DNA from: Macrotrachela quadricornifera
Lineage: Eukaryota > Rotifera > Eurotatoria > Philodinida > Philodinidae
Assembly: GCA_022393335.1 (NCBI GenBank)
Contig: JAJEKB010021353.1
Coordinates: 329,730 to 393,729 of the forward strand
Direction of reading: 5' to 3'
Length of the DNA: 64,000 nucleotides
Shown here: piece after piece, positions 4,370 to 55,199 of the stretch
Position numbering within the stretch: position 1 is the stretch's first letter
How the letters are laid out: each line of letters starts with the position of its first letter
The notes under the pieces: generated by a model
What the model saw: only the letters and a program-made list of their open reading frames with translations
Told to the model about the DNA's origin: nothing
Database searches by the model: none
Made by a program: the position numbers and the translations under genes

Positions 4370-5332
4370 GAGGGAACTACCCCAAGTGATTCACCGCTTT
4401 TGAGTTTGGACTCTATGGATAATGTAGATCCCAATGAGGTATACAAAACCTCTAAAGCGTGAAGGCCCATGGATGTTTGTTCCAGAATTATAGGCATTTT
4501 ACTGGAGTTTTAGGTTGTGGTATGGTATAAACCCATGAATTGAATGATGGTCTTTCAACCTAAGATAGGTCTAATTGTGAGTAGAATATCCTGAAAGTTG
4601 CAGCTCAAAGGAACGTTTCCTTCGCGAGAAATTCAAGTCTAAAAAAACAGTGAGTTTTAGCATCTTTCGTGAGATTAGGCATGCACCAAACCGAAACAGT
4701 TTGTGTTTTGAGTTTGGTTTGAGTTCGGGTATATGAGTTTGGGTTTGGATCTGGGTTTGGGTTCATATTTAATTATAGCTGATGTATGCAGCTTCTGATA
4801 TATAATTATTGCTCAAACTCAAACTCAAACTCAAACTCAAATTCATACCCAAACCCAAACTCAAACCCAAACTCTACTCAATACGTAAAGCATCAAATTG
4901 AGAATGATCTAGGTGTGGTGCATGTTTATTTGCGAAGTCAGACTCAAACCCAAACCCAAACTCATTGGACCAAACCCAAACTCCCAAACAGTTTGTCTTT
5001 GAATTTGAGTTTGGTGCATATCCCACGGTGGGATGTGCGGGACTTTTGAAACTTGAATATCTCGAGAAGAAAACATTCTTTTGAGCTGAAACTTTCAGGA
5101 TATTCTACTCACAAATAGACCTCTCTTTGGGCAAATTCTTAGGTTGCAAGACCATCATTCAATTCATGGGTTTATACCATGCCACAACCTAAAATTTCAG
5201 TAAAATGCCTATAATTCGAGAGCAAACATCCATGGGCCCTCACGCTTTTGAGGTTTTGTATACCTCACTGGAATCTACATTATTCATTGAGTCCAAACTC
5301 AAAAGCGGTGGATCACTTGGGATAGTTCCCTC
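4370..5332. mobile_element. Foldback element with about 280-bp inverted arms
   Basis: The left arm starting GAGGGAACTACCCCAAGTGA is the diverged reverse complement of the right arm ending in TCACTTGGGATAGTTCCCTC. The arms stay alignable to about 4650 on the left and 5040 on the right. Between them lies a core of AAACTC/AAACCC hexamers. No coding capacity is seen. I found no clear target duplication at the ends, so the true boundaries may lie slightly further out. It is probably a non-autonomous DNA transposon. Confidence 0.7.
4686..5030. repeat. AAACTC / AAACCC hexamer core of the foldback element
   Basis: The left half reads GAGTTTGGGTTTG-type words and the right half reads runs of CAAACTC and CAAACCC, so the hexamers occur in both orientations. 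The outer words ATGCACCAAA (about 4681) and TTTGGTGCAT (about 5020) mirror each other. The open frame here is only a by-product of the repeat. Confidence 0.75.
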
Positions 5333-6487: not shown

Positions 6488-9400
6488 ATGCTATCAGTTA
6501 ATAATTTGGCTATATGGTTAATTGTAGTCATCATTGGACAAATCTCAGGTGAGTTATCGAGAATTATTTTCATATTTCTACAGAAATGAAACCTGTTCCT
6601 ACTCACGATGTTTCTTAACATGATTGATACATTCATAAAATTTGATATCAAATAAAATGTTTTACAGTCTTTCAATGGACACGATTTACAATAGATTGGG
6701 ATCAGTGTTCCGAATGAGTCGGACTGGGCCTATCGCTCTAAAAAAAAAGTTACTTTACGGAACCTTCAAAAAAAAGTTCTGTAGAAAACAAAAAGCTTGT
6801 AAATATGTTCAAATTTCCAAAAATCGAATAAAAAAAATCACGAAACCTTTAAGGGAGCTTTCCCTGGGCATACGTGAAGATCCTTTTTTCTTCGGAACCT
6901 TTCTAAGTTCTGTAGACCAAAAATAGGTTTTGTAGGGAAATACAGAGCCTTTAAAGTTTCGTACTAAACCTCAAGGTTTTGCAATGGGTTTTTTATAAAA
7001 CCATTATATTTTATGCGAAACTTTAAAGGTTATGTATTTCCCTACGAAACCTATTTTTTGGTCTACGAAACTTAAAAAGGTTTCGTGAATTTTTTTATTC
7101 TATTTTTGAGAGTTTGAACATATTTGCAAGTTTTTTGTTTTTTACAGAACCTTTTTTGAAGGTTCCGTAAACCAACTTTTTTTTAGAGTGTAGAAAAAAT
7201 AGCCCATGGGCTAATTAGCTTTTTTATAGCCCAGCCTACCCATCTGTTTCAAATGGTGATCCGGTCCACTCATGGGCCACTTATCTAGTTAAATATTTTC
7301 TTTGCTGTGTTGTACAAATTTACTTAAATCCCTTTCTTCATTAGAAGCCTTCTTTCGTGAAAAATTTTGCAAGACTTATTACAAGACTTCCCTTAATTAA
7401 TTATTAAATCCGAAAAATAAATCCTTTAATTAATATTTTTCCGATAAAATACACCTCATTTTCGGAGTTTTTCGCTGAAACTCTTATGAGACTGAAGTCA
7501 TCATCATTTCTACACTTTCAAAAGTTCAAAAATCTCTTCTCAAAGGCTTAAAATTTTAAAAAAATCGATTTATTGTTTCTGATTAAAACTTATCAAAAAA
7601 AGTGATACATAATAAAAGACCCTTTTGGAAACTTTTTATACGGAAGTGTAATAGAAGACTAGGGGTTTTTTAAACTTGGGAGGAGGGGGCGGTGTTTCTT
7701 ATGATTTATTGTGACGATTTCTGATGGAAGAGGTGAAAGCACTGATAGAACTACGATTTTATTTATTTTTTCCTCTCAAGAATTACATTGTCCTTATATA
7801 AAACAGTCGGTTAAACACTCGTCCATTAAATAAAACGAAAAAAAAAGAGTATGCCAAATTACAGCGAAATGTACTAAGCATGAAGATAAAGAGACTGATC
7901 CATCAATTAAGAAGAACCGAAAGGACAGTGAGAGGTGCGTACAGCACATGCCCCTGAGAGCGTTTCTTGATCCAAATATATCAGCCTATATAAAACAGTT
8001 GTCAAAATCTATAAAAATATGTTACACTTTTTTCTTTATTCTGCTTTATCTCAATACTCAATATTTATTGCAGAAATATTTCAATAAATGAAGAAATTAA
8101 TCGAAACCTTTGAAAATTTTGTATTTTTAATCAGGCTTTGGCCCAGCCCATTCCATAGGATTTTATTTTCAAAAATCTTAGCCCATGGATGGGCTGGGTT
8201 GGGCTGGGCTTGGCCCAGTCCATCCGGAGCTCTGGTCGAGATGTTAGTGCGAAGTTTCTTTTTCTAGAAGTCTGAAACTCCACATAGATGCTCGCTTTTA
8301 ATACTGTGTAAATATTCATTTCTAGTAACTCGCAATCCGTACAGCATTTCTCTCTATTGATCATTAGAAAAAGTTCAAAAATTGGGTTGTTGGAACATGC
8401 ACAGTTGTATACGTGCTTGTTGGGAATTGATTTTTGGGTCATAGTAATCTAATATATCTCACCCGACGTACCAATCATAGTGTTCAGTATATTGGTATCA
8501 AGGGGCAAACAGCAAACTTTGAGACTTCCCACGAAAAAATTTTTCGTAAAATATCGCGTAAAAACGCGTTTCTGGAGGTCGCGGTTTTTGCCGGTTTTAC
8601 TGGGTCACAGGAGTCAGACCATCAATCCACACCTTTATAACCGGGGAAAACCGCGACTTCCAAAACCGCGTTTTTACACGGTAATCGAGATGTGAATTGA
8701 TGGTCTGACTCCCGTCATCCATTAAAACCGATGAAAACCGCGATTCTTAGAATCCGTTTTCTTTCGGTTTACAAAAACTGCACTTATGATCTCATTCCAC
8801 TTTGCATTCCGTGGTGTCCTCATGAAAAATCACAGTTATATGATTGATTACCTTTACTTGTACGGCAATCATATTTCATTAATTCATCATAAGGACACCC
8901 AGGAATTGAGGAGAAGTATAATCTCCACCAGGTTGAATGGACCATTAATAAAAAAACTAATACTCACTATTTGACTTCGAGTTCGTATGAATAAAGCCAT
9001 AATACAATCATTTTTAATTTATCATTTATTTCGGTTTCCATATTGATAATCAACTAAAATAAAGAAAAAAAATCTTTCGTTAAAATGAATACTTACTTCG
9101 ATATTCATATCGATTATGAACTAAAATAAAGAAGAAAAAAATCTATCAATCGAATAAATACGTACTGATGATATTGATATTGATCATCTACTAAAATAAA
9201 GAAAAAAAATTCTTTCATTCAAATAAGTACTTACTTCGATTTCTATATCGATGATGACCTAAAAAAAATAAAAATTCTTTTATTTAAATAAGTGTTTATT
9301 AATAATATTGATGTTGATCATGAATTAATATAAAGAAAAAAGTTCTTATATTTAAATTAGTCATTAAAAGTTTTCCCGCAATGTGGGTTTTTGCATCAGT

Positions 9401-12400
9401 CATTTCTATGAGTTATTATAAGAGAATATATACAGTCGTCAATGCATCAACTGTAATGTACACTTCTGTGAGCAAAAATAGGTCGAGATGAATATCTACG
9501 TTAGTGTATTCAAGTAAAATGAAATATTATATATCATAGTTCGAAAAGCTACATGTTCAGCCGAATAGTGGTTGTCCATAGCTTCCTATTCAGCTGAAAA
9601 CTACCGCAGTTTAAAGCTTCGTCATCGCGGTATTCAAAAGCGATCATAAGTGCTGCATTTATTACCGCGGTTATCATTGATTATATCGCGGTATTAAAAA
9701 CTGCTTAATAAAGCTATCTTTTTTTACTGGGGTTATTGCTTAGAATACCGCAGTATATAGAACTGTTTAATACCGCTTTCTTTTTTACCGCGATTGTTGT
9801 CGATTAAACCGCGGTATCAAAAACCGTTTAATAACGCGAATCTTAATACCGCGATGAGAACTGACAATATCGCGGTTTCTTATACCGTGTTGCACAAGAC
9901 TGCGGTTAACCGCGGTGTTTAATAAATTATCGCGATGAACCGCGGTTTTTAGTATTTTACCGCGGTGAACCACGTTATTCTTCAAATTTTTTTTCGTAGG
10001 TTGGAGGATTTCATCGTGACTTGAACATGACTTCACTTAACTTCACCTAACTTCACTATGGAGGACTTCATTTTTTCGAAGTCTTTCACTAGGACTTCAA
10101 AAGACTTCAGTGACTTCAAAAAACTACCAGTGGACTTCAACAGACTTCTGATTGACTTCAAAAACTTTCAGTAGATTTCAAGGAGGAAACAGCTGAGACT
10201 TCGCGATGAAGTCTCATAAAGTTATGTAAGTCTCGAGAAGTCTCATGAAGTCTCATGAAGTCCTATAAATTTTAATAACACAAGCAGTTTTAAATAAAAT
10301 CAGTAGATATTCATCGGACTTGAAGATACTATACTGTTGCATTAGAATAAACTTTTATTCTTTTACTAATTTGCTGGAAAAACTCAGAATAAACTAAAGT
10401 TTTGGTCGTTCAGTTGGTAGTTGAAACGTATTTCAATGAGGTATTTTATTTTTCTTTATTTATATACATGAAAAACTTGTTTTATACGAGATTATTTCGA
10501 TATTCATTAGATGTATTTCTTTTTTTTGATAAACAAGAGCAATTGTTCTGATTCTATATCAATAGAAAATGATCGCAAATTCTTTATAAGTAATTTAGGA
10601 GACGTTCAATGTTACATTTAGTAGAGAAAGTAGGGAGGGATTATTCAAAGCATAGTCATCTTACTTGAAACTGTTTCAACTACATACCACCAAGAAGACA
10701 AGCAAAATGTTATTACTATATGCCAAATAACTTTTTATTTATCTTAAAAGTCACTCAATTTTGTAATTTGTATAAGGTTTCCCGAAATCTCACGAAGTCT
10801 ATCGAAGTCCACTGAAATCAAAAAAATATCATTGAAGTCGCATGAAGTGTCATGAAGCCTTATGACGTCTTATCAAGTCTGTGGAAGTTATCCAAAGTCA
10901 TTAAAGTGATCTGAAGTCAGTGAAGTCTTTTGAAGTCTCTTGAAGTCAATGAAGTCTTGAAAAGTTTTTCTGAAATCTTCTGAAGCCTTTTGAAATTTCA
11001 TGAAGTCAGTAGGAAGTCTTCTATTGTGAAGTCAGCTAAAGTCAATTGAAGTCATATTTAAGTCTTGAAGTCTGCTGTTTCCCCCTTGCTTCTAATAGAC
11101 TTCAGTGACTTTAGGTGATTTCGCTGACTTCGAAGACTTCGGCAGACTTCAGATGAACTCGATAGACTTCGTGAGACTTCACGAGACTTCATCGCAAAGA
11201 CTCAGTTGTTTCTCCCTTGATTGGTATGATGAAGAAAAAAAGACTCATAAAACGTTGCATTCATAGCCACCCTCAAGATCAATGAATAATCAGGTCTGTC
11301 CTGGTTTTCAAAGGTTTTTAATGATTCGGAAAGCTCGAGAGAGAGAGAGAGAGAGAGAACTTCTCATAGCAACAAATACCGTATCCTTTTAGAATATGAT
11401 GTGTGATTTAGGATAGTCTTTTTACATGATGTGCAAGAAGTTTTAGTATGAGAAGAAATAATAACAGATGTTTTTTTTAAATGAATTAAACGGAAAATAG
11501 CATGTGATCAGGCAAGAAAGAATCATGCAAAGTCGGGATGATAAGGGACCAAATAAATGAACGATATATTCATGAAGAAAAGAAAGTTGAATAAAATTAA
11601 CCAAGAGAACAGAATCGGAACGAATATTAAAAAACTAAACTTGAATTGATTTAGATTGAGACTGATGAAGATGAGTACTTGTTATTGATGAGCACAAAGC
11701 ACAAACATATATATAAACACACAAGCGAACTAAACCATGTTTAAGAAGAAACCGAGTCGCGCTACTACGCGTAGTATCGGCATCAATCATGGCATTTATC
11801 ATGAAGTCATGTTTAGTTGTACAGATAAAAATCAGTGATGATCTGATAACATTGAGAGTAGAACTGGTAGCTTGACCTGACTATAGTTAGTGGTCATTTT
11901 TCACTTGCATAATATTAAGACGGTAGATAGTTCTATAAATTCACATTTGGTCTTTTTCTTCTTCTTGAAAAAAAGTCTTGAAGATGATATGAAAAATACG
12001 TCTAAGAATTATCCTTTTCATCTCAATTTGTCTTCGTGTGGAAAAATTCGAATAAAAGAGATTTATGCTACTCTTCTTCTTAAAATGGTTTTGTATTGAG
12101 TCTTCAAGGCTTGGAATTTTTTGCGCAAAATTTATATTTTTTATACAGAATGTAAAAAAAAGATTTCGTAAGAGATGTTTTCGCTAGTGAATACTACGCA
12201 GAATCTTCTCAATTTCTTTGAAATGTTAGAAAGATTCAAATAATTACAGAAATGATTATTTTTTTTTGAAAATATCGAATTATATAATCTTATTTCTCGA
12301 ATTAAAATATATCAATCTCACAAAGTGATTATAGAGATCGATAAAAGTTACAAAAATTGTGTATTTTTTGAAATAATTATTTGAAAAGAAAAATATCAAA

Positions 12401-15400: not shown

Positions 15401-18400
15401 AGGTTCAGCATCGAATCAATTAAGATTTCCACAGAGTATGGCTTTTGATTCGTATGGAAATCTGTTTGTTGTTGATCAAGATAATCATCGAATTCAAAAA
15501 TTTAATCTTGAATATAATATCTGTGGTTTGTTTTGTTTGATGAATAAGAAATGAAATTATAAATATTCTTGTTTATAGATCAATCAACAATTGTACCTCT
15601 TACAACACAGATTCAACGAGGTGAAATCATTTTTATTTGATTTTCGAAGAAATAAGAAAGACTTTTTTAGAATTAATAACTTCGACAAAACAAAAAGAAG
15701 AAAAACAAACATCATCATCAATGATAACAAGTACATTAGTAATGACAACATCAAAAGAAATGATTCGAAATCCAGGTTATTATTTGATGAAAATGGAAAT
15801 ATTTCTATTGAAATAAACGATCTCTTCTATAGGATGTACAACACCACGTTTAATATTAATACCTGGAATATCTTCATTATCATCTCCACTTCAATATCGA
15901 CGAAATCAAGATTTTACAATTGATTCAAATATTGAATTCAATTGTAATCTTTCATTATCAATAATAACAAAATGGACAATTTATAATTGTACATCAATAT
16001 GTTCATATCAAATTCAAGTAGATTCATCTGTTATTTCATTAAATTCTGGTGAACTTTATATTCCATCTCGAACATTATTATATGGATTATATCAATTGAA
16101 ATTAACTCTTTCAATTCCTAATTATCCAAACTTCACATCAACATCATCATCTGTTTATGTTCGAATCACACCATCAGGAATTACCGCAAATCTTGTTCCA
16201 TTAGGAACATCAATGATTACAAGTGGAAATTCCAAAGATCTTCAACTTGATCCTAGATCCTATTCTGTTGATCCTGATGGATTTATTTTCAATGCTAGTG
16301 TAAGTCTGTCAGATGAATTCGTTTACTGAACCGAATGAATTTTTCTAAAAGTTTAAAGAAAGTGAAGATAGAATTGCTCGAACTGAATAGTGTTTCATAA
16401 AAAGACAGTGAAGTGTAGAGAAATCTTTCAAATAATGAAAACATAATTTCGATTTTTTGCAACTGAATCGATCATAACCGAGATAATCTTTAACCAAATG
16501 AAAGACAATATCGATTGAGTCCAGTTACGATCAATGAAAAACTCAAACTTTTATCTTTTTCTGAACATAATCTATGTGATTTGTGAAGAGTAGAGATACA
16601 TTGGATTCGAATTTCTCAGCTTCAGTCATTCCCGGTACCTGGATTATCCGGGACAGTGATTAGTTTATGATTGAAAACAATCGAACTTAGGAATGACCGA
16701 ACTCGACAATTCTGGTTTATTCCTGGGTTTTGTATATGCCTAGTGAATAGAGACTACAGATCTTTTTCGAGAAAGCAAATGAGTTTTTCAAGGATTTAAA
16801 CAGTGTTAATGCACTCGAAAAACAAGTTACTTTACGGAACCTTCAAAAAAAGGTTCTGTAGAAAACAAAAAGCTTGCTAATATGTTCAAATTTCCAAAAA
16901 TCGAATAAAAAAAATCACGAAACCTTTAAAGGATCTTCCCCTGGGCACACGAGAAGATCCTATTTAAGTTTCATAGACCAAAAAATAGGTTTTGTAGGGA
17001 AATACAGAGCCTTTAAAGTTTTGCATAAAATATAATGGTTTTATACAAAACCCATTGCATAACCTTGATGTTTAGTACGAAGCTTTAAAGGTTCTGAATT
17101 TCTCTACAAAACCTATTTTTTTGTCTACGAAACTTAAAAAGGTTCCGAAGAAAAAAGGATCTTGCCGTGGGTCCAGCAAGGGGGAAAGTGCAGATCTGGC
17201 ACCTCAGCACTTTTTCAGCACCCTCTCACTAATTTTTCAAAAATTTACCAGCATCTTTCCAGTACCTTTCGGACACTTTTCTACCACTTTTCCAGTATCG
17301 ATCCTGAAAAAGGTGCTGAAAAAGTACTGTAATACAGAGTATAGCTTCTGAGACGCCGAAAAAGTGCAAGATGCTCCGATCTGCAGTATTTTCTCTAAGA
17401 TTTTGCATACTTAATAATTTGGCAGCTCTAAAAGTGCTTTATTAGCACTTCAAAACTTCGGCACCTCAGCACCTTTTTCAGCACCTTTGATGAAAATTTG
17501 GTGCGGTGGTGCAGCACTTCCCCCTTGGGGTCCAGGGGAAGATCCTTTAAAGGTTTCGTGATTTTTTTTCCATTCGGTTTTTGGAAGTTTGAACATATTT
17601 GCAAGCTTTTTGTTTTCTACAGAACTTTTTTTTAAGAGTGTGAAGGCAATAGTCGGTCACTGATAGAATTTTTACTCTTGAATTTGAAAATAATCATTAT
17701 ATCGAACATTTAACAAATGATCAATAGAGCTCGTCAGGTTCGGATTCGAGATTATATTTAAAGAAGTATTTGATTGATATAGATGTATTTTTCTAATTTT
17801 CCATTCTCGTTCATTTGTTTTAAAGTTATCTTCAATCTACATAGAAAATAGTTTAAGCGAATTCGGGTCGAAAGTATTCGGACCCAACGAGCTCTAATGA
17901 TCAGTATGAGATGAATAGATTAGAATTGATTTCTGTATAAAAAGATATATTTTTAGAACTGGAAATATGAATATTATTGTCGAATCTATCCTTTATATTC
18001 ATTTCCAAGTATAATGGGATCATTAATCCCGTTGGATGATACTCGAATCGATCCATTAAATCCGTCATGTGTATCGAATAAAAGTGGATTGAAATTCAAT
18101 GGTGTTCGACAATCATCAAAATCTTCCTTAATTATTCTCGGAAATTCACTTCAATCGAATCAAACATATCAATTAATGGTTTATATGGAAGATCGTTGGA
18201 ATAGTTCAAATCAAGCAACTGGTTATGTTCTTGTTCGAGTTGAAGATACTCGTCCACAAATTATTATTATTGGGTAAATCAATCATTTTCTTCTCTCTTT
18301 AATCTAATTTCAAGAATTTGCTTTTTTAGTTGTGTGATTTGGACAATGTGTGTTCCAAATTTAGAATTTCAATTAGTTAATCCCACAACTCAAGTGGCAT

Positions 18401-21400
18401 TATTTTCATATTGTACTGGAAATTGTACATTAATTAAAAATATTCAATGGAATATTTATCAAGGAATTCAAAATTCATCATTGAATTATACAAAATGGAC
18501 TTTATTCAATCAAATGAATAGATATGAAAATATTTGGTTTTTTGGAAGAAATACATCGAATTTGACGTCATTAAATCGATTATTTTTATCAAATCCCTTG
18601 GTAACACTTTGGAGATTTGAAGTTGTTTATCAATTTCCTTCTGCAACAAGTTCAAGTTCATTAAATTTTGTGATCAATCAACCTCCAACAAATGGTTCAT
18701 GTCGAATAAATCCATTAAATGGAACAACAAGTACATTATTTGATATCTTATGTCCAGATTGGTCTGATGATGATGGAATAAAAGATTATTCGCTTTATTC
18801 AATTGATGATCGATCAAATCGAATGATGATTACTTTTTCATCAATTTCATCATTTCAAGTTCGATTACCAATTCCAACAAATCAACAATCTGAAATGAAT
18901 TTAATTATTCAAATCCGAGATACATTAGATTGTATTAGAGAAGTGAATCTATCATCTGTTTATCTTCTATCAGATACAACAGTTATATCGGATTTGATTA
19001 ATACTTTTCAAACATCATCATTAAATCAATTAACAACAAATCCAACAATTCAATTACTTTCAACAGGAAATCAAAATTTAGTTGGACAAATTATAAGTTC
19101 ACTTTCAAAACAATTGACTGAATTTAATTCGGAAAATCTTAATGAAGCTGCTTCAAGTAAATTCTCTTTTTCTCATTGATCTCTATTTTCAATCGTTTGA
19201 TTTAGATGGAATTCCACTTGCAAGTATTTCAATCTCTTCATTAACTGATCAAAAATCCCAAACAATGAATCAATCGAAATTATTCAATGAAACAGCTTTA
19301 GAAGAATATCAGAAAGAATTAAATTCCCAGGCTAATCTTCAAGAATATTTAATCACGCATTTAATAAAACTTCCAATAACAACATCAAATTCAATTAAAT
19401 TACAATCATCAACATTAGTTCAATTAACCAAATCAACAAATCAATTAACACGATCAGCTTTAGTAAGATCAGAATAAAGAGAAAATTAAATCTTCAAATT
19501 AATTTTAATTAACTAGACAATGGCATTGGATAAATCTTATCAATTATCTCTTGCTTTATCATCCATGTCAGCACGAATTTCATTTGAAGATCTTCAAATT
19601 TCATCAACTCAAATTGTTCAATCTGTAACAAATATTAAAACAGTAGGAACACAAATCATTCTCTCACACATAAACTCCACATTTCAACCACACTTTTTCA
19701 TCCATGTTTGAAGTTATGTTCGGGAAAAATCAATACTCTTATAATAAGTAGAGGTGTAAGCCGCCGCCGCGCCGCTGATGCTGTGTATGTCCAGCCACGC
19801 CGCAGCCGAAGGCCTAATAAAAATTAAATTTTTCGAGCCTCTCTCTTTGTGTCGTACGATAAATCATAGATTTTTACAAGGGGGAAACAGCTGATTCTAA
19901 GATTCCAGGATTCCAAGGATTCCATGGGATTCCATGGGATTCCAAGGATTCCATGGGATTCCATGGGATTCCAAGGATTCCATGGGATTCCAAGGATTCC
20001 ATGAGATTCTAAATATTCCACGGGATTCCAAGAGATTCCATAGTATCGCTCTTGACTTGAAGCAGTGGTAAAATATGCCAAAATATTTGTGTAAACAAGG
20101 AAAATGATGCAAAAAGACGAGCAACAAAATAATACCTACAATAATTCTTGAATAATTAGGACTTTAGCGATTAGCCGTATACATATTTATCCTATTTTTT
20201 ATTTAAAAAAAACAAGTTTGTTATTTTTGCACAACACGATTTAAACGGTCCGATGATAGTTTATGTTTTTCATTTGTTAAATACCAACAGGCCGTATTTT
20301 TATGAAGATATTTCTTTTTTCCATCAATATTTACCAAAAAATATGAATCTTTCAAGTCAGGATTTATAGTATCACAAAGTCCTTTGGTGGTCTTTAAACG
20401 GTTGTTGGTCGTATGTTCCAATAAATTAATATCATGATCGTCTTCATCTTCACTATCATAATCGTATAAAACCATTTCGTTTTGTTCACCTTCTTCAATA
20501 GTACTTTGCTCTAAATCAGAATTAGATTCTAAATCAGATGAATCTGATTCTGGTTCAGAACCAGGTTTCAAATCATAATCAGATGGAACATTATTTTCTT
20601 CAGTTGTCATTGATACTAAGAAATCTACCGTTTTTGCTGACTTTTTGAAATGCTTGTAAATATATTCACTAACTTGTTTCATGTTAATAATTTTTGATTT
20701 TTTCAAAATTTTTTCAACACCTAAAGGAACCAAAAGATGAAAAGCATCTTCGAATGCACGATTAACTTGATCTTCTATTTGTTGTTTAGTCATTTTTTCT
20801 GGTGGAGTCGTTGATTGTTGTTGATTCCATTGTGCTTTATGATGATTTGGAAATTTAAATTTAGCATTTATGAATGATGAATTTGATTCAGCTTTGATTG
20901 AATGTAATATAGAAATTTTTTCTTGTCGATGCATATACTGTTGAACAGAAAAATTAGCAGATGTAGAAAATGGTCCAGATATTGCTCGTGCTAACCTAAA
21001 AGAGTTTTCACATGTTTGTGAACTAAAACTAAAAACATTTAGTGCTTCAACTGGTACTTTATTATCATCAACTAGTAATGTTAAATAAATAAGATGATGA
21101 GCATTGATTTCAATGCATAAAAAGGTTGGTGATGAAATGAAAAAAATGTTTTTTGATTTTTTTTTGTTGAACTTGTCTTTATTTTTTTCTGAAATGTTGT
21201 TTGTTTGTGATATACGGTTATTCAATTCTTCCTTTGGTATTAAATGAAGCCATACACACCATAAACGGCATATAAATACAGCTAACCAAGCATGATAAAT
21301 TCGATTAACTGTTGTTGATGATGTATTAATAAATGCAATTATTATACAACGAATAATCGTAAGATATACAAATGTAGCATGTGAATCATTTATACATTTT

Positions 21401-24400
21401 AAATATTCTAAAGAAGAACATAACTTTTCACATGATCTATAATTTTGCTTGTCACGAGGACAAATGTCTGATTTTACCAAATTGTGCTCGAATTTCGATT
21501 TCGATTCGATAAGTTGAAATAAATAATCAATACTAACTATATTATCACCTATTAACATGTAGGATGAAGATGATAATAATCTGTTTCGGAGTTTTGTGCA
21601 TACATGAATTGGATCTTGCATGCATAAAAATAATTGTTCACCTGGTAAGTAAAACCACGACCAAGAAACTGGTATAGCAACTTTAAATAACGATGAATGT
21701 TCAATTGTTGGGCTATTCAACAAAGTTCCAAAAAACCCACATACTAATTTCATTGCCAATAAATACCTTGGATCAGTATCTGTTGAATATTCCATAATAC
21801 GAATACCTCGACGTAAACTTTCTTCAAAAATTTTAAACCAACGTCGAATAACATCAAAACAGGTAAATTTTCCATTAGTTCCATATGCAGATAGCGCAAA
21901 AGGAGAAATTTTTTTATAATTAAAACATATTGGTTGAATCATATGTAAATTTATTAGATGAGAAATATCTTCTTGCTCAAACCACATTTCTAAATCTTCA
22001 AATGAGTTGGTTTGGAAATGTTGTATTTGTGGCATCCCATGTTCATCAAGTGGAAGTGTAAAACCAACAAATGCATTTGATTGAACATCATATACAATTC
22101 TGCGTAAAGCAGAAGTGCAATCTTCTGCACAATATACATATGTTGAACCAATTGTTGTTAAATATTTTTTCATATCATCATAACGAAATTGGCCTTCAAT
22201 TGTACGGAATCCTTCTTTAGCAATTTTTGTTTGAATTGTGGTTAAATTAGGTAATACACCAGGTATATTGAGGCGCATAAATTCGTAGGAATTGCGTCCT
22301 GCTAAAATAAATAAGCAGAGCGCGAAATCGATAATACATTCGGTATATCGATATCGACTTTTAGCAAGTGATAAATTTGAAAAGAGATTTTCAAGAAAAT
22401 GATGTAAAAATGATTCATTTAATGAATTAACATCTTGAGATAAGTTCATAAAAAAATGGATTAAACCTTTAAGAAATGGATATTTTGCAATAATTTCAGA
22501 TGATAAAACGAAATCATTTTTCATGGTAGTAGTAGTTATTACTTGTTCATCGTTGACTAATATATTTTGAAGACTTTTAAATAACTTATTAACATCATGT
22601 TGAATTCCCAGCTTGATTACAAAGGTACCATCAGATCGACTAAATGTTAGTTTTTTCTTGATATCAGTTAATTCAAGATAATCTTCTTTCAAAGGCAAAA
22701 AAATATCACCAACTCCAAGAAGTGAGTGAATTGAACGAACTCCAAGAAGTTCAAAATATTTCACAATATCTTCACTACAGTAACGGCCAACATAAGCAAA
22801 AAAATCATCACCTTGAAGATCAAGTATATTTTGCGAAATTGATGGTAACGATTTAGTCATACTATCAGATTTTGTAAATAAATTAACAAGATAAGTTGAA
22901 TGTAAATTAGCTTGATGACGTGCACTAGAAAAAAGAGAAAGAAATACAGCAGAAAATGATTTCATTTGACAAAAATAGAAAAGAGGTCAAAAGAAAAGAA
23001 TATATAGTCTTCATATCCTCTTTTTTCTGTATCTACTATAACCAGATATTTCATCACAACATATTTTCTCTTTTATTTAAAAAGTCTTCTAACAATTTTT
23101 AAGAAACACTATTGAGAGTAAATACAATCTATTACTAGCAATAAAATCAAACAATTATTTAATGAATACAAAAATAAATAAATTATATAATGTACAAATA
23201 ATCCATGGAATACGGCCTAAGTTTTTCGAATCTTTCTTTTGATTGTATAATTGTCTGTTGTTCGTCGAGTTCGTTTTCGACCAGCGCTTGATGATGTTTG
23301 TTGTGAAGAATGAATAGAGGATGAATCTTGATCATGATCTTGTATTTCGTTATTGATTTGATTGTCGTTTACTTCAGCTTGAATAAATACACAATTGAGT
23401 TTTAAATGATGAAAATAGTTTGATAACTATTATAAAAAGAAATTTGAGTATAATATTTTAATGAAATCAGCTAAAATCTATAGTTCAATTTCAATCAATA
23501 GTTTAACTTAGCCTATGAAAATGCATATATTTTAACAAAATTCAATAGGTTCGAAGGTCTTTAAGAAAAATTTAAAATTAAAACATTTAGCTTTCTGCTG
23601 AAACAAATCATTAACTTAACGAGTCAAACGAAGCTGTCTATGATATAGTAAATATTATAAAAAAATAATTTTACTTCGAAATTGCCAGAACAACCAATAG
23701 AAAGCGTACATGATACACCACATGAGCATTTGATTGCAACGTTGTCAAGAGATGTATCAAATTGTAAATGATAATCTAAGCCAGAAATAAGATTGAAATC
23801 AGAAATATTGATTATTTTTTCATTTTTAATACACCGTTCTTGAATTGAATTTTCAATAAATGTACGATGTTCTATTTCATTTTCTTTTGAGATAAATGAA
23901 GTAACATTTGTATTGATGTTCGATGCAGTATCATTAAGAGATGAACAAGAAAGTGAAGTTGTTGATTGAATTCTCTTTATTTTGATGACTTTCTTTCAGT
24001 AAAGCACTAAGATGATCGAGTGTACTTTTAATACCTGGTTTTACCGTATAAATTCCATTTCTTTTTTGAAAACCACACTGTTTTTGAACTTCTTTAACGT
24101 CTTCACTATCAAGTTCGAAAATGGAATAAACATCTTGAATGGAAAGAAATGAATCGACAATAAATCAGATGCATCTTTTCCACAAAAGTTTTTAACAAAA
24201 TCGTAGAATTGTTTATCTGTATAAGTTAGAACATCATGTGGAAGTCGAGACGTGTTTGATGAGGTACGTATCATTTTTATGATGTAGAAGATGAAACTGA
24301 ATATTAGAAAAAATGAGAAAATAATTTCCAAGTGACTTTTTTTTCGTTCTTATAGACTACGCATATATATATATATATATAAAAGGAAGGAAAGAAAAGT

Positions 24401-27400
24401 TGAATGTTCGTTAAATCTAAGTATAATAATCTATATTTCCGATGCATTGAAGATAATGAATACTAACATAGAGAAAATATTTATAAAATCTCTATCAATA
24501 AAAATAAGTAAGAAAAGAAATAGTTTTAAAAAATTTAGAGGAAATAAATCGTTATCCATCTAGTGCATCGAGCACTGTAGTAGAAATTTTTGTTCTGTAT
24601 TGAAAGATTGTGAAAGACAGGTTTTAAAGTAATGCATTCGTTGCTCATACATAATTATCATATTGGTTTAAAACTCACATTTTACTACAGTATGCTTCAT
24701 TATAGAATTCTATAAATTTTTTAGCTCTATTTTGACTTCTAAATAGATAAAATAAAAGATCTAATATTGTTAATTAACGAAGATTTATTTAATAATTTTC
24801 TTCCACGTACATATTTTCTAATTGAATATTTCATTTATCATTACGTAATGTCATAGGTAACCTGACATATTTAATTATACCAATGAGTATATGCATATAG
24901 ACACGTACGTGTTTTGACGACATTTTATGCATGAGAACATTAATATTTTTATTTGATAAAATCAATTTTCCCATTCAGAACTTTACTACTATATGGTTAC
25001 AAACACTATTTTTTATGTTATTGTCATCACTATGCATCAGATGTTCATACATAAATAAAGCATTTAATAGTAATCAATTTTATTTCTGGAATTACACAAG
25101 CAATTTCCGATTTCTGTGTCCAATTTCCATTAAGTCTCTTGACTAATCTCTCTGATTGTTTTTAGAGATTCCAGGGATTCCAAGAGATTCCAGAGATTCC
25201 GAGAGATTCCAAGGATTCCATAGGATTCCAAGGATTCCATGGGATTCCAAGGATTCCATGGGATTCCAAGGATTCCATGGGATTCCAAGGATTCTAAGGA
25301 TTCCAAGGATTCCAATTACACAGAATCAGCTGTTTCCCCCTTGGATTTTTACATACTTTCCTTGTTCAAAACGAATTTTTACTGCTCTAGTCTTTTATTA
25401 GAACGTGCTATCTTATTATTCTTCACCTATTTTGTTTTAAAATTTCTCAAAATTGGAAAAAGTTTTAAAAAAAAAACGGAAAAGTCCAGCCGCCGCCGAA
25501 GACTCAAAAAAGACTTTAAATTTTGAGCAGCCGCCGCCGTTCGAGGCATCGGCTTACACCTCTAATAATAAGTGACTTGTCTGAAGAGGCTCGTTCCCAA
25601 AATAGAAGAAAAGTACCATTTTCTTAACAGAACAACTGAGTTTTGTTTTCGGAATGATGCTTCTGAACAGTGAGGACTTTTGGTTTGTTTTCCTAGAGTA
25701 ACTATTCTTTCCCGGAAGTGTGTGAGAACAAATGAATTGTTATCCTAATTAGTATTCACCAAGTAATTACTGATTATAATCCCTTGGAATGAGAAAACAG
25801 CTATGAATCAAGGGGAAAACAACTGAGACTTCGCGATGAAGTCTATCGAAGTCATCTTACGTCTTTACAATCATTTGAAGTCTTCGAAGTCTGCCAAAGT
25901 CATCTGAAATCAGCGAAGTCACCTAAAGTCTATCAGAAGTCTTTTGAAGTCCTATTAAAAGACTTCGAAAAAATGAAGTCTTCCATCGGTAAGTTAGGTG
26001 AAGTGACGTTGAAGTCACGATGAAGTCCTTGAAATGTGCTGTTTCCCCCTTGCTATGAATATTGATTTGATTTATTCGAAAAAATCAATTCGATTCTATT
26101 AGTGAAGATAATTGTCTTTAAAATCGAGGCTGTCGATGGTCCATTAGAAGAACGAACGAGTATGTTAGATGCGGATTTATCTCGTGCAACAACACTTCCT
26201 GATGATTATGATACAGATATTGAATCACAATGGTCAAATTTAAGTAAGAGATCTCTCTTCCGAATCAATAGAATAATCTTTCTCTCTTTCTCTCGATTAG
26301 ATTTATTTGGTGATCGGAATGATTTATCTTATTCGAAAATCATTCAAGGTCGAAATCGTTATTATCAAAAAGAATTATCTCAAGAAATTCAAAATAAAAT
26401 CAAAGAAATCAATTCATTATTAACATCATCATTAAATATTCATTTGAATGTCAAACAAAATCTGACAATGAATACATCGGATGTGTTTATGTCATATGAA
26501 AGTGAAACAATCAATTCAATTTCAAATAAACAAATTCAACAATTTCAAAATTCAAAAATTTCATTTCCAAAATCATTTTCTTCAAATACAAGTTTCAATT
26601 CAACAGTTTTTATTCAAGTTTGTCGTTTCTTTGTTCTTGTTAATTATCTTATTTTGATTCTTTTTGTTTAGTCAAAATTGGATCCAGTTGCATCATCATC
26701 TGGAAATTCAAAAATCATTTCCAATACGAATGTTTCTCGATCGATTTCTATTTCATTGACTGATCGAGAAGGTAATGAAGTCTCAATTGAAACGGATGAA
26801 ACAAATCGAATTGAAATAATTATTCCACGAGATCCAAATCTTGTCATTTCTCCAATGATTTATCAAAATGTCACATCAACCAATTCTCTTCTTGATCAAA
26901 AGTTATTTTCATTAAATTATTTGAATTTAACTCGTAGTCTTTCAATTTCACTTCACATTGAAATTCGTCCATTAAATCTAAATCTTGGTTATTTATTAAT
27001 TTATAAATTTAATCGAAGTCCTCAATTAAATAGTACAATGAATGATGTTGATGGATGGATTTTATTTTGTCCTTCAAATTTAACTGATGACAATGTTTAT
27101 AAATATTTTCTAAATAATCAACAAATCTCCACTCATCAATCGATCATTTATGGTTTACGAGAATTAAATTCAACTGAATTTGAAAATATTTGTCTTAAAA
27201 ATCAAACTCAAATTCTTCCAATAATTGATCGAAAATTAAATTTTACCTCTGATTATGAAATTCGATCATATACATCTGGTTGTTATTCACTTGATAAAGA
27301 TAATAATTGGTCATCAGATGATTTAATTGTTGGTCCATTAACAGATTATTCTCAAACCCAATGTTATTCACGACGATTAGGAACATTTAGTGGATCATTT

Positions 27401-52314: not shown

Positions 52315-54111
52315 TTAGGCTTCGTTTATGTTTTTATTTGATATTCTACGATGTGATTGAACTGCTGTTTTGCAAAGTTGACTGAAGAACAGTTTTAATA
52401 CATTAGCATATGTTTGATCTTGAGAATATGCTTCAATTGAACGCCAGAAACGGCGAAATAATTTTAATGCATTATTTCGTTCGACAAAATGCATACGAGA
52501 ATCTGCTATTAATTTAATCATTTTTTCGAAACTTTGATCTGTATGTGAACGAACAAATGCTTTTTGATTGCACCAAAGACCTTCAATTGCGTTTAGTTCA
52601 CAATGATATTTAGGACAGTATAAAATCTTAACATCATATTTGCTCGCTAACATTTCAAGTTTTGTCACCTATACAATAGAGTAAATCGCATAGGATGAAA
52701 TATATTTCAAAATATGAAAGGATGTTCACTTACATTTATAAAAGCTCGATATTCAGAAAGTATTTTACGAATTTCATCCAACTTAGCCTTAACTGGTAAT
52801 TGCGCACCTAATTCTTTAGCCAGTTCAACCAAACCTTTTGATTGATCTTTGTATGCTCCTTCCTTAAAATAACAATCAATAACTTTTATTGCACCATTTT
52901 CATCGACAAATTCAATCTGTTCAACCGGACAACGAGTGCCAATAGTTTTACCAAAATCATGTAATGAGTATGCTTTAGTAGTGTGCGTTCTTGCATTGTC
53001 AACAATGATTTCTATCCAATTATGCTTGTAATCTTGTTTAAATTCCAGCATCTGAAAGAGTCTTTCAAACTGACTTAAAATTGTATCATTATCGAAGTAA
53101 GCATCTGTTCCGATATTAATACTAGCTGTTGCTGTACGACTAAGATAATTAACATCACTATCCTTACTTAGTGATTTATATTTTGTAACTGCTTTTTTCC
53201 ATTCATCTTCACTAAGTTCAAAAAAGGGTCCACTGGGATGCTGAACAAGAAAATCAGATATCATACGGCTTCGACCGCGTCCTTTCGAAAAAAATGGTAT
53301 ATTATCTTGAAAAAACCACCGTTTTGGGCTAACTTCACCACTTCTAAATGTTGATTCATCGTGAACTAATAACGACAAAAACGAAAAACAATATAATGGA
53401 AATTTTATCTAAAAAATCTTGATCGCTATACTTACACATGAGTATCCTGAGTGGATTTTGCGTTGGGAAATTCCATATTGGTGTTTCACCATCATTAATT
53501 GTGTAATAGAAGCGTTTATCGGTTAGAAAATAATTAATAAATTCATGATGATGTTTCACAACATCATCTCTTTCATGTCCTTCAAAATATGGACGTTGTG
53601 AATTAGCCTCGAACTTTGCTCCCCATCTGCGAAGATCCAGACGACAACTTCTTTCTGATCGTATCAAATCGTCGCCACTTTGTTTTTTAATTCCTGTTAG
53701 CTCGTAATATTTTGTATCAATAAATTGAGTCAAGTCAGCCGCTTTGAAATCTGCTGACTTTTGTGAACATGCTTGAACAACGAATGATCTAGTATCTGCT
53801 TCAATCTCCGGAAACGTATCATAAAAGGAGTCGGTATGCTTACCACCACGTAAATCATTTGAAAACTCTTCAAAGTCTCCTTTAATAAGCAGTGCTGCCC
53901 ATTTATGTGAAGTCTGCGCGGTCATAAAACCGATATTTTTGAAAAATCTATCAACTTCTTCCCATTTCACGTCTAAGAAGCGTAACGACATATAGAGTAA
54001 AGTGCTAAGATATTTCGCACCACATTTCGACTTGCACATCTCAGTAAAGTCACCAATGTCGGTCAAGAGAAGTTTTTCATTAAAAGATGTTTCTTGATCA
54101 TCAACCTCCAT
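52315..54111 (-). CDS. IS630/Tc1-like DDE transposase, three exons
   Basis: Exon 1 (54111 to about 53438) ends ...NPLRILM, exon 2 (about 53371-52732) begins HDESTFRSGE, and exon 3 (about 52668-52315) begins VTKLEML; donors GTAAGTATAG and GTAAGTGAAC join in phase. The N-terminal part is helix-rich with SCRLDLRRWGAKF and YFEGHERDDVV blocks typical of this transposase group. The catalytic core has HDEST (first D), VDNARTHTT (second D) and CPKYHCELNAIEGLW (final E), matching the DDE_3 pattern of the IS630-Tc1-mariner superfamily. No stop or frameshift interrupts it, so the protein may be functional. I could not identify its own terminal repeats: a CACTCTAAAA arm lies against the 3' end, but no partner is seen on the 5' side. 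A longer 5' end is possible. Confidence 0.75.
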
Positions 54112-55199
54112 GGTGTATTTATCACCTGATGAATCAATTGGATCCGGAGTGTTCGTATTTGACCAGCGACGAGTTGATGCGTTTCGTAAGTGACTTTTTG
54201 TTTCCGTGGAGGAGGCATCATAATCTAATTTTGTTTAACCGAATACGATTTGATCTCAAAAAAAGAGAAACACATTACTAAGACATTGTTATCCTAATTT
54301 TTTAGAAAACGTATTCCAGAGACTCTTTCAAAATCCTCCAGAGATCTCAAAGTAACTTCATTCGATCCCCCGTCAGTTTTTACCTAGATAAACAAATTTT
54401 CACTTGATTTGAATGAAAATTAAGCATTTTGTTTAAAAATGACCTCCCCCTAGATCTTATCATCCTAGTAAATACAATTTTTCTCAACATAGGAAAGAAA
54501 AGAAAAAAAAAGTGATGCATTAGTGAGGGTGAGGGTGTGAGTCCAGCATACTACGATCCGGATTTCGACCTTGCTAAAGGGTCATCATCAGGTAGTTTTA
54601 ACTCTGTGCAAAGTGGAGGGAACTTCCAAACATCAGGAATTGGAAAGTTTTATCGGAAGGCTATTTTTATCGTTATGAATTTGTGATTATTGCGGACATG
54701 GAAATCAAAAGGATGTATGCTTAATTATTGTTAATTTGAAAAGGGATGCTGGTTTAGCACAGATGGCTCAGATTTACTAGTTTTCAGGCAAAGGTCGTTT
54801 TATATTCTGATTTCGATTTATTTAATGCTTGGCTTTTTTCTGATTTTCAGGAACGTTGAGAAACCAGTTTTTTCGTATGGTCAAGTTTATTTTGATTTCC
54901 AAGTAGAAGTTTCTATAAGGTGAGTTCTAGTAAACTGCGAGGCGTTCCGACTGTGTCTCAACGGTTTGATGAACTAGTTAGGAGTTGCCTCTTGATTTCA
55001 AATTGCTTAAGACGACAATACAAATGAAAGTTGAAGACTGTCAACTGGAATAGTGAAATGGACTGATATTTTTGAATCTTTGGATTTATGGAGAGAGGGT
55101 TTATTTTAACAAAACAGAAAACGAAGATTAAAATATGTGAATGAAGTGTTTGTGAATGTCTCGGAGAGGTATGGTTATTTTCTTTATTGTTGGCTTGTT
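54112..55199. other. Intergenic region with a TGAGGG array
   Basis: A GTGAGGGTGAGGGTGTGAG array lies at 54523-54541. No gene is recognised elsewhere; the remainder is A+T-rich with decayed-looking sequence. Confidence 0.45.

Follow-up and report, generated by a model that had tools for sequence, protein, structure and literature searches.

Direct word arrays at a pitch of about 10 base pairs behind a common short end in rotifer transposons assigned to the P superfamily

The 64,000-nucleotide stretch analysed here (the window; Macrotrachela quadricornifera, assembly GCA_022393335.1, contig JAJEKB010021353.1, positions 329,730 to 393,729 of the forward strand) contains a transposon of 5467 base pairs (bp), element A, whose short terminal sequence recurs in many other elements of this genome. 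Behind the end lie arrays of a short word repeated about every 10 bp, and the word differs between elements. These elements very probably represent lineages of the P superfamily, each with its own array. The superfamily was assigned by the transposase fold, the 8-bp duplication and domain matches in relatives. As a joint explanation, we lean towards a radiation of cut-and-paste P-superfamily transposons in a bdelloid rotifer genome, with the arrays serving as binding platforms. Element A is composed as follows (ORF, open reading frame):

19877..25343: element A, GGATTCC family, 5467 bp, with both genes, exact 15-base ends and a perfect 8-bp duplication
19869..19876, plus strand: left target-site duplication of A, GATTTTTA
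25344..25351, plus strand: right target-site duplication of A, GATTTTTA
19877..19898, plus strand: left terminal inverted repeat, 22 bp in common with the right end
25322..25343, minus strand: right terminal inverted repeat
19900..20040, plus strand: left GGATTCC array, 13 units (at most 1 mismatch), gaps of 8-10 bp and one of 29
25166..25315, plus strand: right GGATTCC array, direction as in the left, 16 units, gaps of 9 or 10 bp
20221..22860, minus strand: ORF2, the transposase, an uninterrupted frame of 879 amino acids counted from the ATG that relatives conserve
23670..24274, minus strand: first coding part of ORF1, an accessory protein, matching P0009 at 44-66% identity in three pieces
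23220..23423, minus strand: second coding part of ORF1, with SNYFHHLKLNC and a basic tail; the motif is joined in P0060, P0064, P0070, P0082 and P0089

Element A is bounded by CAAGGGGGAAACAGC in inverted orientation, with GATTTTTA on either side, and its second genomic copy, locus L013, has a duplication of its own, GTAGTAGT. The original prediction had reported three copies with matching ends and perfect 8-bp duplications. All three were confirmed: the pairs at 19877-25343, 25809-26052 (element B) and 17177-17527 (element C) carry GATTTTTA, CTATGAAT and GGGTCCAG, respectively. A fourth pair with a perfect 8-bp duplication (ATTGGTAT), overlooked earlier, lies at 8499-11219. With at most 3 mismatches allowed, the terminal 15-mer matched the window 9 times against 0.50 expected, and two 8-mers drawn at random from the window match, with no more than 1 mismatch, at a rate of 9.7e-4. 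Whole-genome searches covered 450 megabases in 5695 contigs and found the exact 15-mer at 222 places, compared with none for the reversed control. Among the first 100 of the 222, which were examined for pairs, both ends were exact at 17 places; sequence was retrieved for these 17 pairs and for 23 single ends. A duplication with at most 1 mismatch flanked 14 of the 17 pairs and was perfect in 12; the pairs at L015, L021 and L022 had none. Since L010, L011 and L014 show one identical duplication, 12 of 15 distinct sites were duplicated. In the genome copies, the 15-mer was exactly common to many word classes. Contig collections (viral and genome) searched for related loci gave no relatives. A 69-bp element with CAAGGGG ends was also seen at L026 and L027, in two homologous contigs, with flanking 8-mers differing at one base.

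The arrays behind these ends shared their pitch and their direction. The self-similarity z score was at least 3 in 49 of 62 exact ends, and the best lag (of 4-15) was 10 in 40 of them, 9 in 8 and 11 in 1. The 62 ends are the exact ends from the window and the retrieved loci, omitting L001-L004, L006 and L007, which are short loci duplicating longer ones, and exact ends with too little sequence behind; L010, L011 and L014 were counted separately, and repeated views of one insertion were included, so the ends are not all independent. The words read were GGATTCC, TGATTCT, TGATTAG, TGATTTTT, GAAGTC, AAAGTA/GAAGTA, GGAGTCC, GGATTT, GTACTCC and GTGGATTC, as well as GCACTT in C; lineage words also include CCATTCCC. 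Arrays varied in length and quality among copies. They were direct at both ends, while the ends themselves are inverted: the commonest word had the same direction on both sides in 25 of 26 paired elements, C being a tie and the counts being low in L009, L015 and L039. The two arrays of A together contained GATTCC 28 times forward and 0 times reverse. All 16 arrays linked to a transposase (13 plus those of A, L013 and L035) peaked at a lag of 9-11, with z at least 3 in 13. In all 16, the commonest 5-mer (GATTC, ATTCC, GACTT, GATTT, GGATT, TGATT, AGTCC, CATTC or GATTG) pointed mostly away from the end. These 5-mers resemble variants of each other, and we read the array words as a single ancestral word that has probably since drifted.

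The word followed the transposase lineage. A genome search with ORF2 gave 67 match rows, and 20 copies were selected among those with the 3' part mapped; the apparent duplicates C5093 and C3440 were left out, as were several others, e.g. C3656, C4413 and the second C5050 copy. In 13 of the 20, the end (at most 3 mismatches) lay within about 720 bp past the 3' end of ORF2. Core transposases were compared in the 11 elements with most of ORF2 retrieved, with word labels assigned by the analyst and C4716 and C3320 treated as the same word. Identity was 98, 82 and 83% in the three same-word pairs and 34-58% in the 52 different-word pairs; the values for C1306 underestimate the true ones because its frame is disrupted. 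The link between word and lineage was thus observed in 11 elements of one genome. Two further elements were complete, with one word at both ends and a perfect duplication, namely C4632 (TGATTCT, 5327 bp) and C4184 (GGAGTCC, 5138 bp). Neighbouring lineages were still partly alignable in the array, with A and C4632 at 73% identity over the last 175 columns. The genome contains eight word classes, each with a transposase of its own; for six of these, ORF1 was read in member elements. The original prediction had pictured a single family with interchangeable fillings, in which the ends are shared, the filling is swapped for unrelated amplified words, and one transposase would mobilise all copies. 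An end exactly common to many word classes would suit such a family, but distinct transposases accompany distinct words, the two sides of all but one of the paired elements agree in word and direction, and the GAAGTC copies form one alignable family. We consider a single family very unlikely.

Several loci had further features. L012 and L020 are 4.4-4.5 kilobases (kb) long and carry TGATTCT arrays and perfect duplications; they hold large non-coding passengers, with no ORF of at least 100 amino acids in L012 and one in L020. L016 and L021, elements of about 2.5 kb with the TGATTTTT word, retain a remnant of the ORF2 C-terminus. Upstream of ORF2 in L075 (the C3320 element), long ORFs resemble a hAT transposase, judged by reading only, and may represent a nested insertion.

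ORF2 showed a P-type RNase-H-like fold, an assignment that rests on the VIA-align structure comparison. Of 22 aligned proteins, 12 matched PF12017, with a best E of 2.1e-8. ORF2 of the window itself was outside these 12, and Pfam and PDB searches with ORF2 alone gave no match and no recognised DNA-binding domain. Residues D247, D363 and E618 were kept in all 11 elements and are, by position rather than by residue-level superposition, candidates for the acidic catalytic triad of P. Membership of the hAT superfamily would also bring 8-bp duplications, short inverted ends and sub-terminal repeats, there read by a BED finger, but it is strongly disfavoured by the fold comparison of ORF2 and appears extremely improbable. 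Named protein relatives came from Rotaria, Adineta and Didymodactylos. Rotaria was checked to be a bdelloid rotifer, and Adineta and Didymodactylos are bdelloid rotifers as well, which points to a bdelloid host.

The accessory gene, ORF1, belongs to a family of 35 proteins. The frame of its first part is disrupted in A and open in L013, and an intron probably separates the two coding parts. A zinc-finger-like motif was read in 8 of the 11 elements: A, C2233 (L013), C1306 (L035), C4632, C4716, C4466, C2477 and C2098. The ORF1 region also matched the first ~100 residues of ORF2-type proteins, e.g. P0023 and P0022, pointing to a related N-terminal domain in the two proteins.

These features suggest how the two proteins might act together. 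ORF2 would be the transposase, and the inverted ends of about 15-22 bp, common to the lineages, its presumed site of cleavage and joining. The arrays, with words about one helical turn (9-10 bp) apart, would be binding platforms for a protein of the same element. The most likely reader is the zinc-finger-like ORF1, to which we give about an even chance, and it could recruit ORF2 through the N-terminal domain common to both. Direct arrays would present opposite polarity at the two ends, so that left could be told from right. Through gain and loss of whole 10-bp units, a new word variant might spread through an array; word and reader would then drift together, leaving one word per transposase lineage with pitch and direction constant. 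Deletion between the two direct arrays would yield short copies. We infer from sequence the binding itself, the identity of the word reader, the left-right discrimination, the word drift, the deletion mechanism and the activity. The specific form that we put forward, tentatively and at somewhat less than even confidence, is two-protein end recognition: ORF1 would coat the helically phased array and hand the end to the P-type transposase, and word and finger would have changed together repeatedly against an unchanging pitch, direction and 15-base end.

Comparison of individual copies revealed how the arrays vary. L010 and L011 carry one duplication, AGAAAAAC, and common flanks, with identity at 643 of 661 aligned positions. 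In their alignment the gaps measure 10, 10, 20 and 1 bp; whole units have thus been gained or lost in place at one insertion. L008 (567 bp) matched C4184 (5138 bp) over its initial 97 and final 89 bases, and L010 (302 bp) matched both ends of L018 (3248 bp). These two short copies consist of the left and right array, and their interior is largely fused array. Sub-terminal sequence was conserved among GAAGTC copies and likewise in the comparisons of short with long copies. The arrays might instead be by-products, arising by sub-terminal slippage into minisatellite-like arrays that are homogenised in each lineage, with no recognition and only the 15-base end mattering. The unit-sized length differences at one insertion are consistent with this, as are the variation in array length and quality and the tie between word and lineage, which is expected from descent alone. 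Against it stands a pitch of 9-11 bp and a direction that remain constant across transposases 34-58% identical while the word is replaced. A common pitch has no reason under neutral slippage, and even the degenerate GAAGTC arrays retain the lattice, with most gaps of 9-11, 20, 29 or 39 bp. Descent leaves unexplained why pitch and direction stay constant while the word changes, and an origin as by-products seems unlikely to us.

Several observations weigh against binding platforms read by ORF1. In the arrays, 13 of the 62 ends had z below 3, in a set that includes repeated views of one insertion, and so did L050, L051 and L068 among the 16 transposase-linked arrays. The end was not found in the ~720 bp past ORF2 for 7 of the 20 copies (L052, L053, L054, L055, L062, L064 and L066), nor were the right ends of C4637, C2477 and C4716 within the stretches retrieved. 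The same-word pairs are near relatives, two of the three having DNA identities of 96-97%. Few independent pairs therefore support the link between lineage and word, an association that descent by itself would also produce. In a search for the empty site of B, the joined flanks matched the two flanking stretches of the window itself and, elsewhere, only in part; no match spanned the join. Scanning ORF2 and 21 relatives against Pfam revealed no THAP domain, and we therefore did not file the group in the P element, THAP9 or Galileo families proper. As to ORF1, it was not seen in C4184 and C3320 (C4637 was not assessable), and L044 has CCCE where other fingers have CxCG. Of 8 elements scanned automatically for the motif, 3 gave the finger, the rest being read by eye from open frames, and comparison of ORF1 with Pfam and solved structures gave no significant family and no structure match.

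The N-terminal domain of the transposase could also read the word instead, in the manner of the THAP domain of P and Galileo, leaving ORF1 to be employed otherwise (as a repressor, in transport or in target choice). This would agree with the related N-terminal domain of ORF1 and ORF2, with the strong GGAGTCC arrays of C4184, where ORF1 is missing from view, and with the sub-terminal sites of Galileo and P, which are read by the transposase itself according to the accessible parts of the reports (PMC3688188, PMC7776569). The finger-like motif and basic tail of ORF1, set against a window ORF2 with no recognised DNA-binding domain, argue for the other protein, and we hold a transposase reader to be rather unlikely.

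Among known systems, the group with its putative ORF1-read arrays would work most like Galileo of Drosophila, by analogy. Galileo likewise has a P-superfamily transposase. In the portions available of two papers, its subfamilies have a terminal segment (about 40 bp) in common with subfamily-specific sequence behind, and there are three transposase binding sites, of which two lie deeper within the long, repetitive ends (PMC3688188, PMC3573991). Galileo also has long inverted ends, tandem units (reported at about 210 bp in one subfamily), widely separated binding sites and a THAP domain. The rotifer elements differ in having short ends (22 bp in A), direct arrays of ~10-bp words, a second gene and no THAP domain found. 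To our knowledge, the Drosophila P element has no word arrays and no ORF1. It differs further in its 31-bp inverted end, in the 10-bp transposase site that each end carries, and in having a THAP domain (PMC7776569). The zebrafish Pdre2/THAP9 element, from the part of the report at hand, resembles the group in its 13-bp inverted ends and 8-bp duplications, and differs in an unrelated end, 12-bp sub-terminal inverted repeats in place of direct arrays, and the presence of THAP (PMC10983969). P-MITEs of Anopheles, in the accessible text, also retain both P-type ends and have lost the middle, but their middle is unrelated to P, whereas the rotifer short copies compared are in large part word array (PMC1562414). 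The term 'P element' was absent from the main text, as far as available, of a paper on bdelloid transposable elements (PMC7943196). What is new is the 10-bp pitch, the direct orientation, the assignment of a single word to each lineage, and the presence of a second gene. Literature searches, with most subscription journals outside their coverage, gave no report of 10-bp pitch, direct arrays, word-per-lineage or a second gene among the matches listed. Text searches likewise gave no named family with this end among the matches listed, and for the end sequence itself none of the 10 papers listed of 43 matching concerned transposons by title. The superfamily of the group, P, is a known one.

The other elements of the window are as follows:

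25809..26052, plus strand: element B, 244 bp, GAAGTC family, non-autonomous; duplication CTATGAAT at 25801-25808 and 26053-26060
17177..17527, unstranded: element C, 351 bp, GCACTTTTTC words, end more divergent; duplication GGGTCCAG
8499..11219, unstranded: outer element D, GAAGTC family, with secondary insertions; duplication ATTGGTAT
10179..11088, plus strand: inner element D, GAAGTC family; no duplication found
8530..10005 (approximate boundaries), unstranded: CGCGGT-rich block within D; the word is absent from A, B, C and the remaining D

These elements qualified the earlier description in several ways. The nested group placed at 10.0-11.2 kb is present, but it starts at 8499, and its inner member (10179-11088) lacks a duplication. 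The stretches 11089-11219 and about 10008-10162 of outer D align with B, and B, outer D and inner D are mutually alignable piecewise at 71-92%, so the statement that interiors differ completely holds between families only. Similarly, there is a transposon group that combines a common short end with 8-bp duplications and in which sub-terminal words have been replaced, except that the sub-terminal sequence persists within GAAGTC and in the short and long copies compared. About 15 end bases are kept in A and other copies, but C has only the first 10-11 in common. Words in both orientations, described as general, were balanced in C (GCACTT, 3 forward and 3 reverse), largely one-sided in B (GAAGTC, 10 forward and 2 reverse) and wholly so in A. 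Single-strand folding exceeded that of shuffles in B (z -3.7) and C (z -6.0); the left array of A folded no better than shuffles (z -0.7), and fold-back capacity was rejected as a common design.

A hybrid origin of element D, with one CGCGGT end and one GAAGTC end, was also considered. It was rejected, as the right end of D aligns with B, and the left end of D aligns over 29 bases with inner D at its right end. Given these alignments, we take the CGCGGT block to be a probable later and separate insertion that interrupts B-like sequence. The block contains inverted repeats and a 134-bp tandem repeat and is probably another mobile element, although a duplication of its own was not found. Element C sits in a stretch (16830-17600) of repeated, partly palindromic AAAGGTT/CCTTTAAAGG words that, by reading, is possibly another short element. 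Elsewhere in the window, two overlapping minus-strand ORFs at 52707-54234 resemble, by reading only, a DDE transposase of another kind, and short TTTGGG and CTCAAA tandem arrays lie near each other at 4707-4874.

The group bears on two open questions: how a transposase and its recognition site stay matched during change, and what keeps sister families within a genome from mobilising each other's copies. Eight word classes with a common end and pitch form a natural series, with ready pairs for binding and swap tests. Direct arrays at both ends would in addition offer a simple route to short copies, by deletion of the genes between them.

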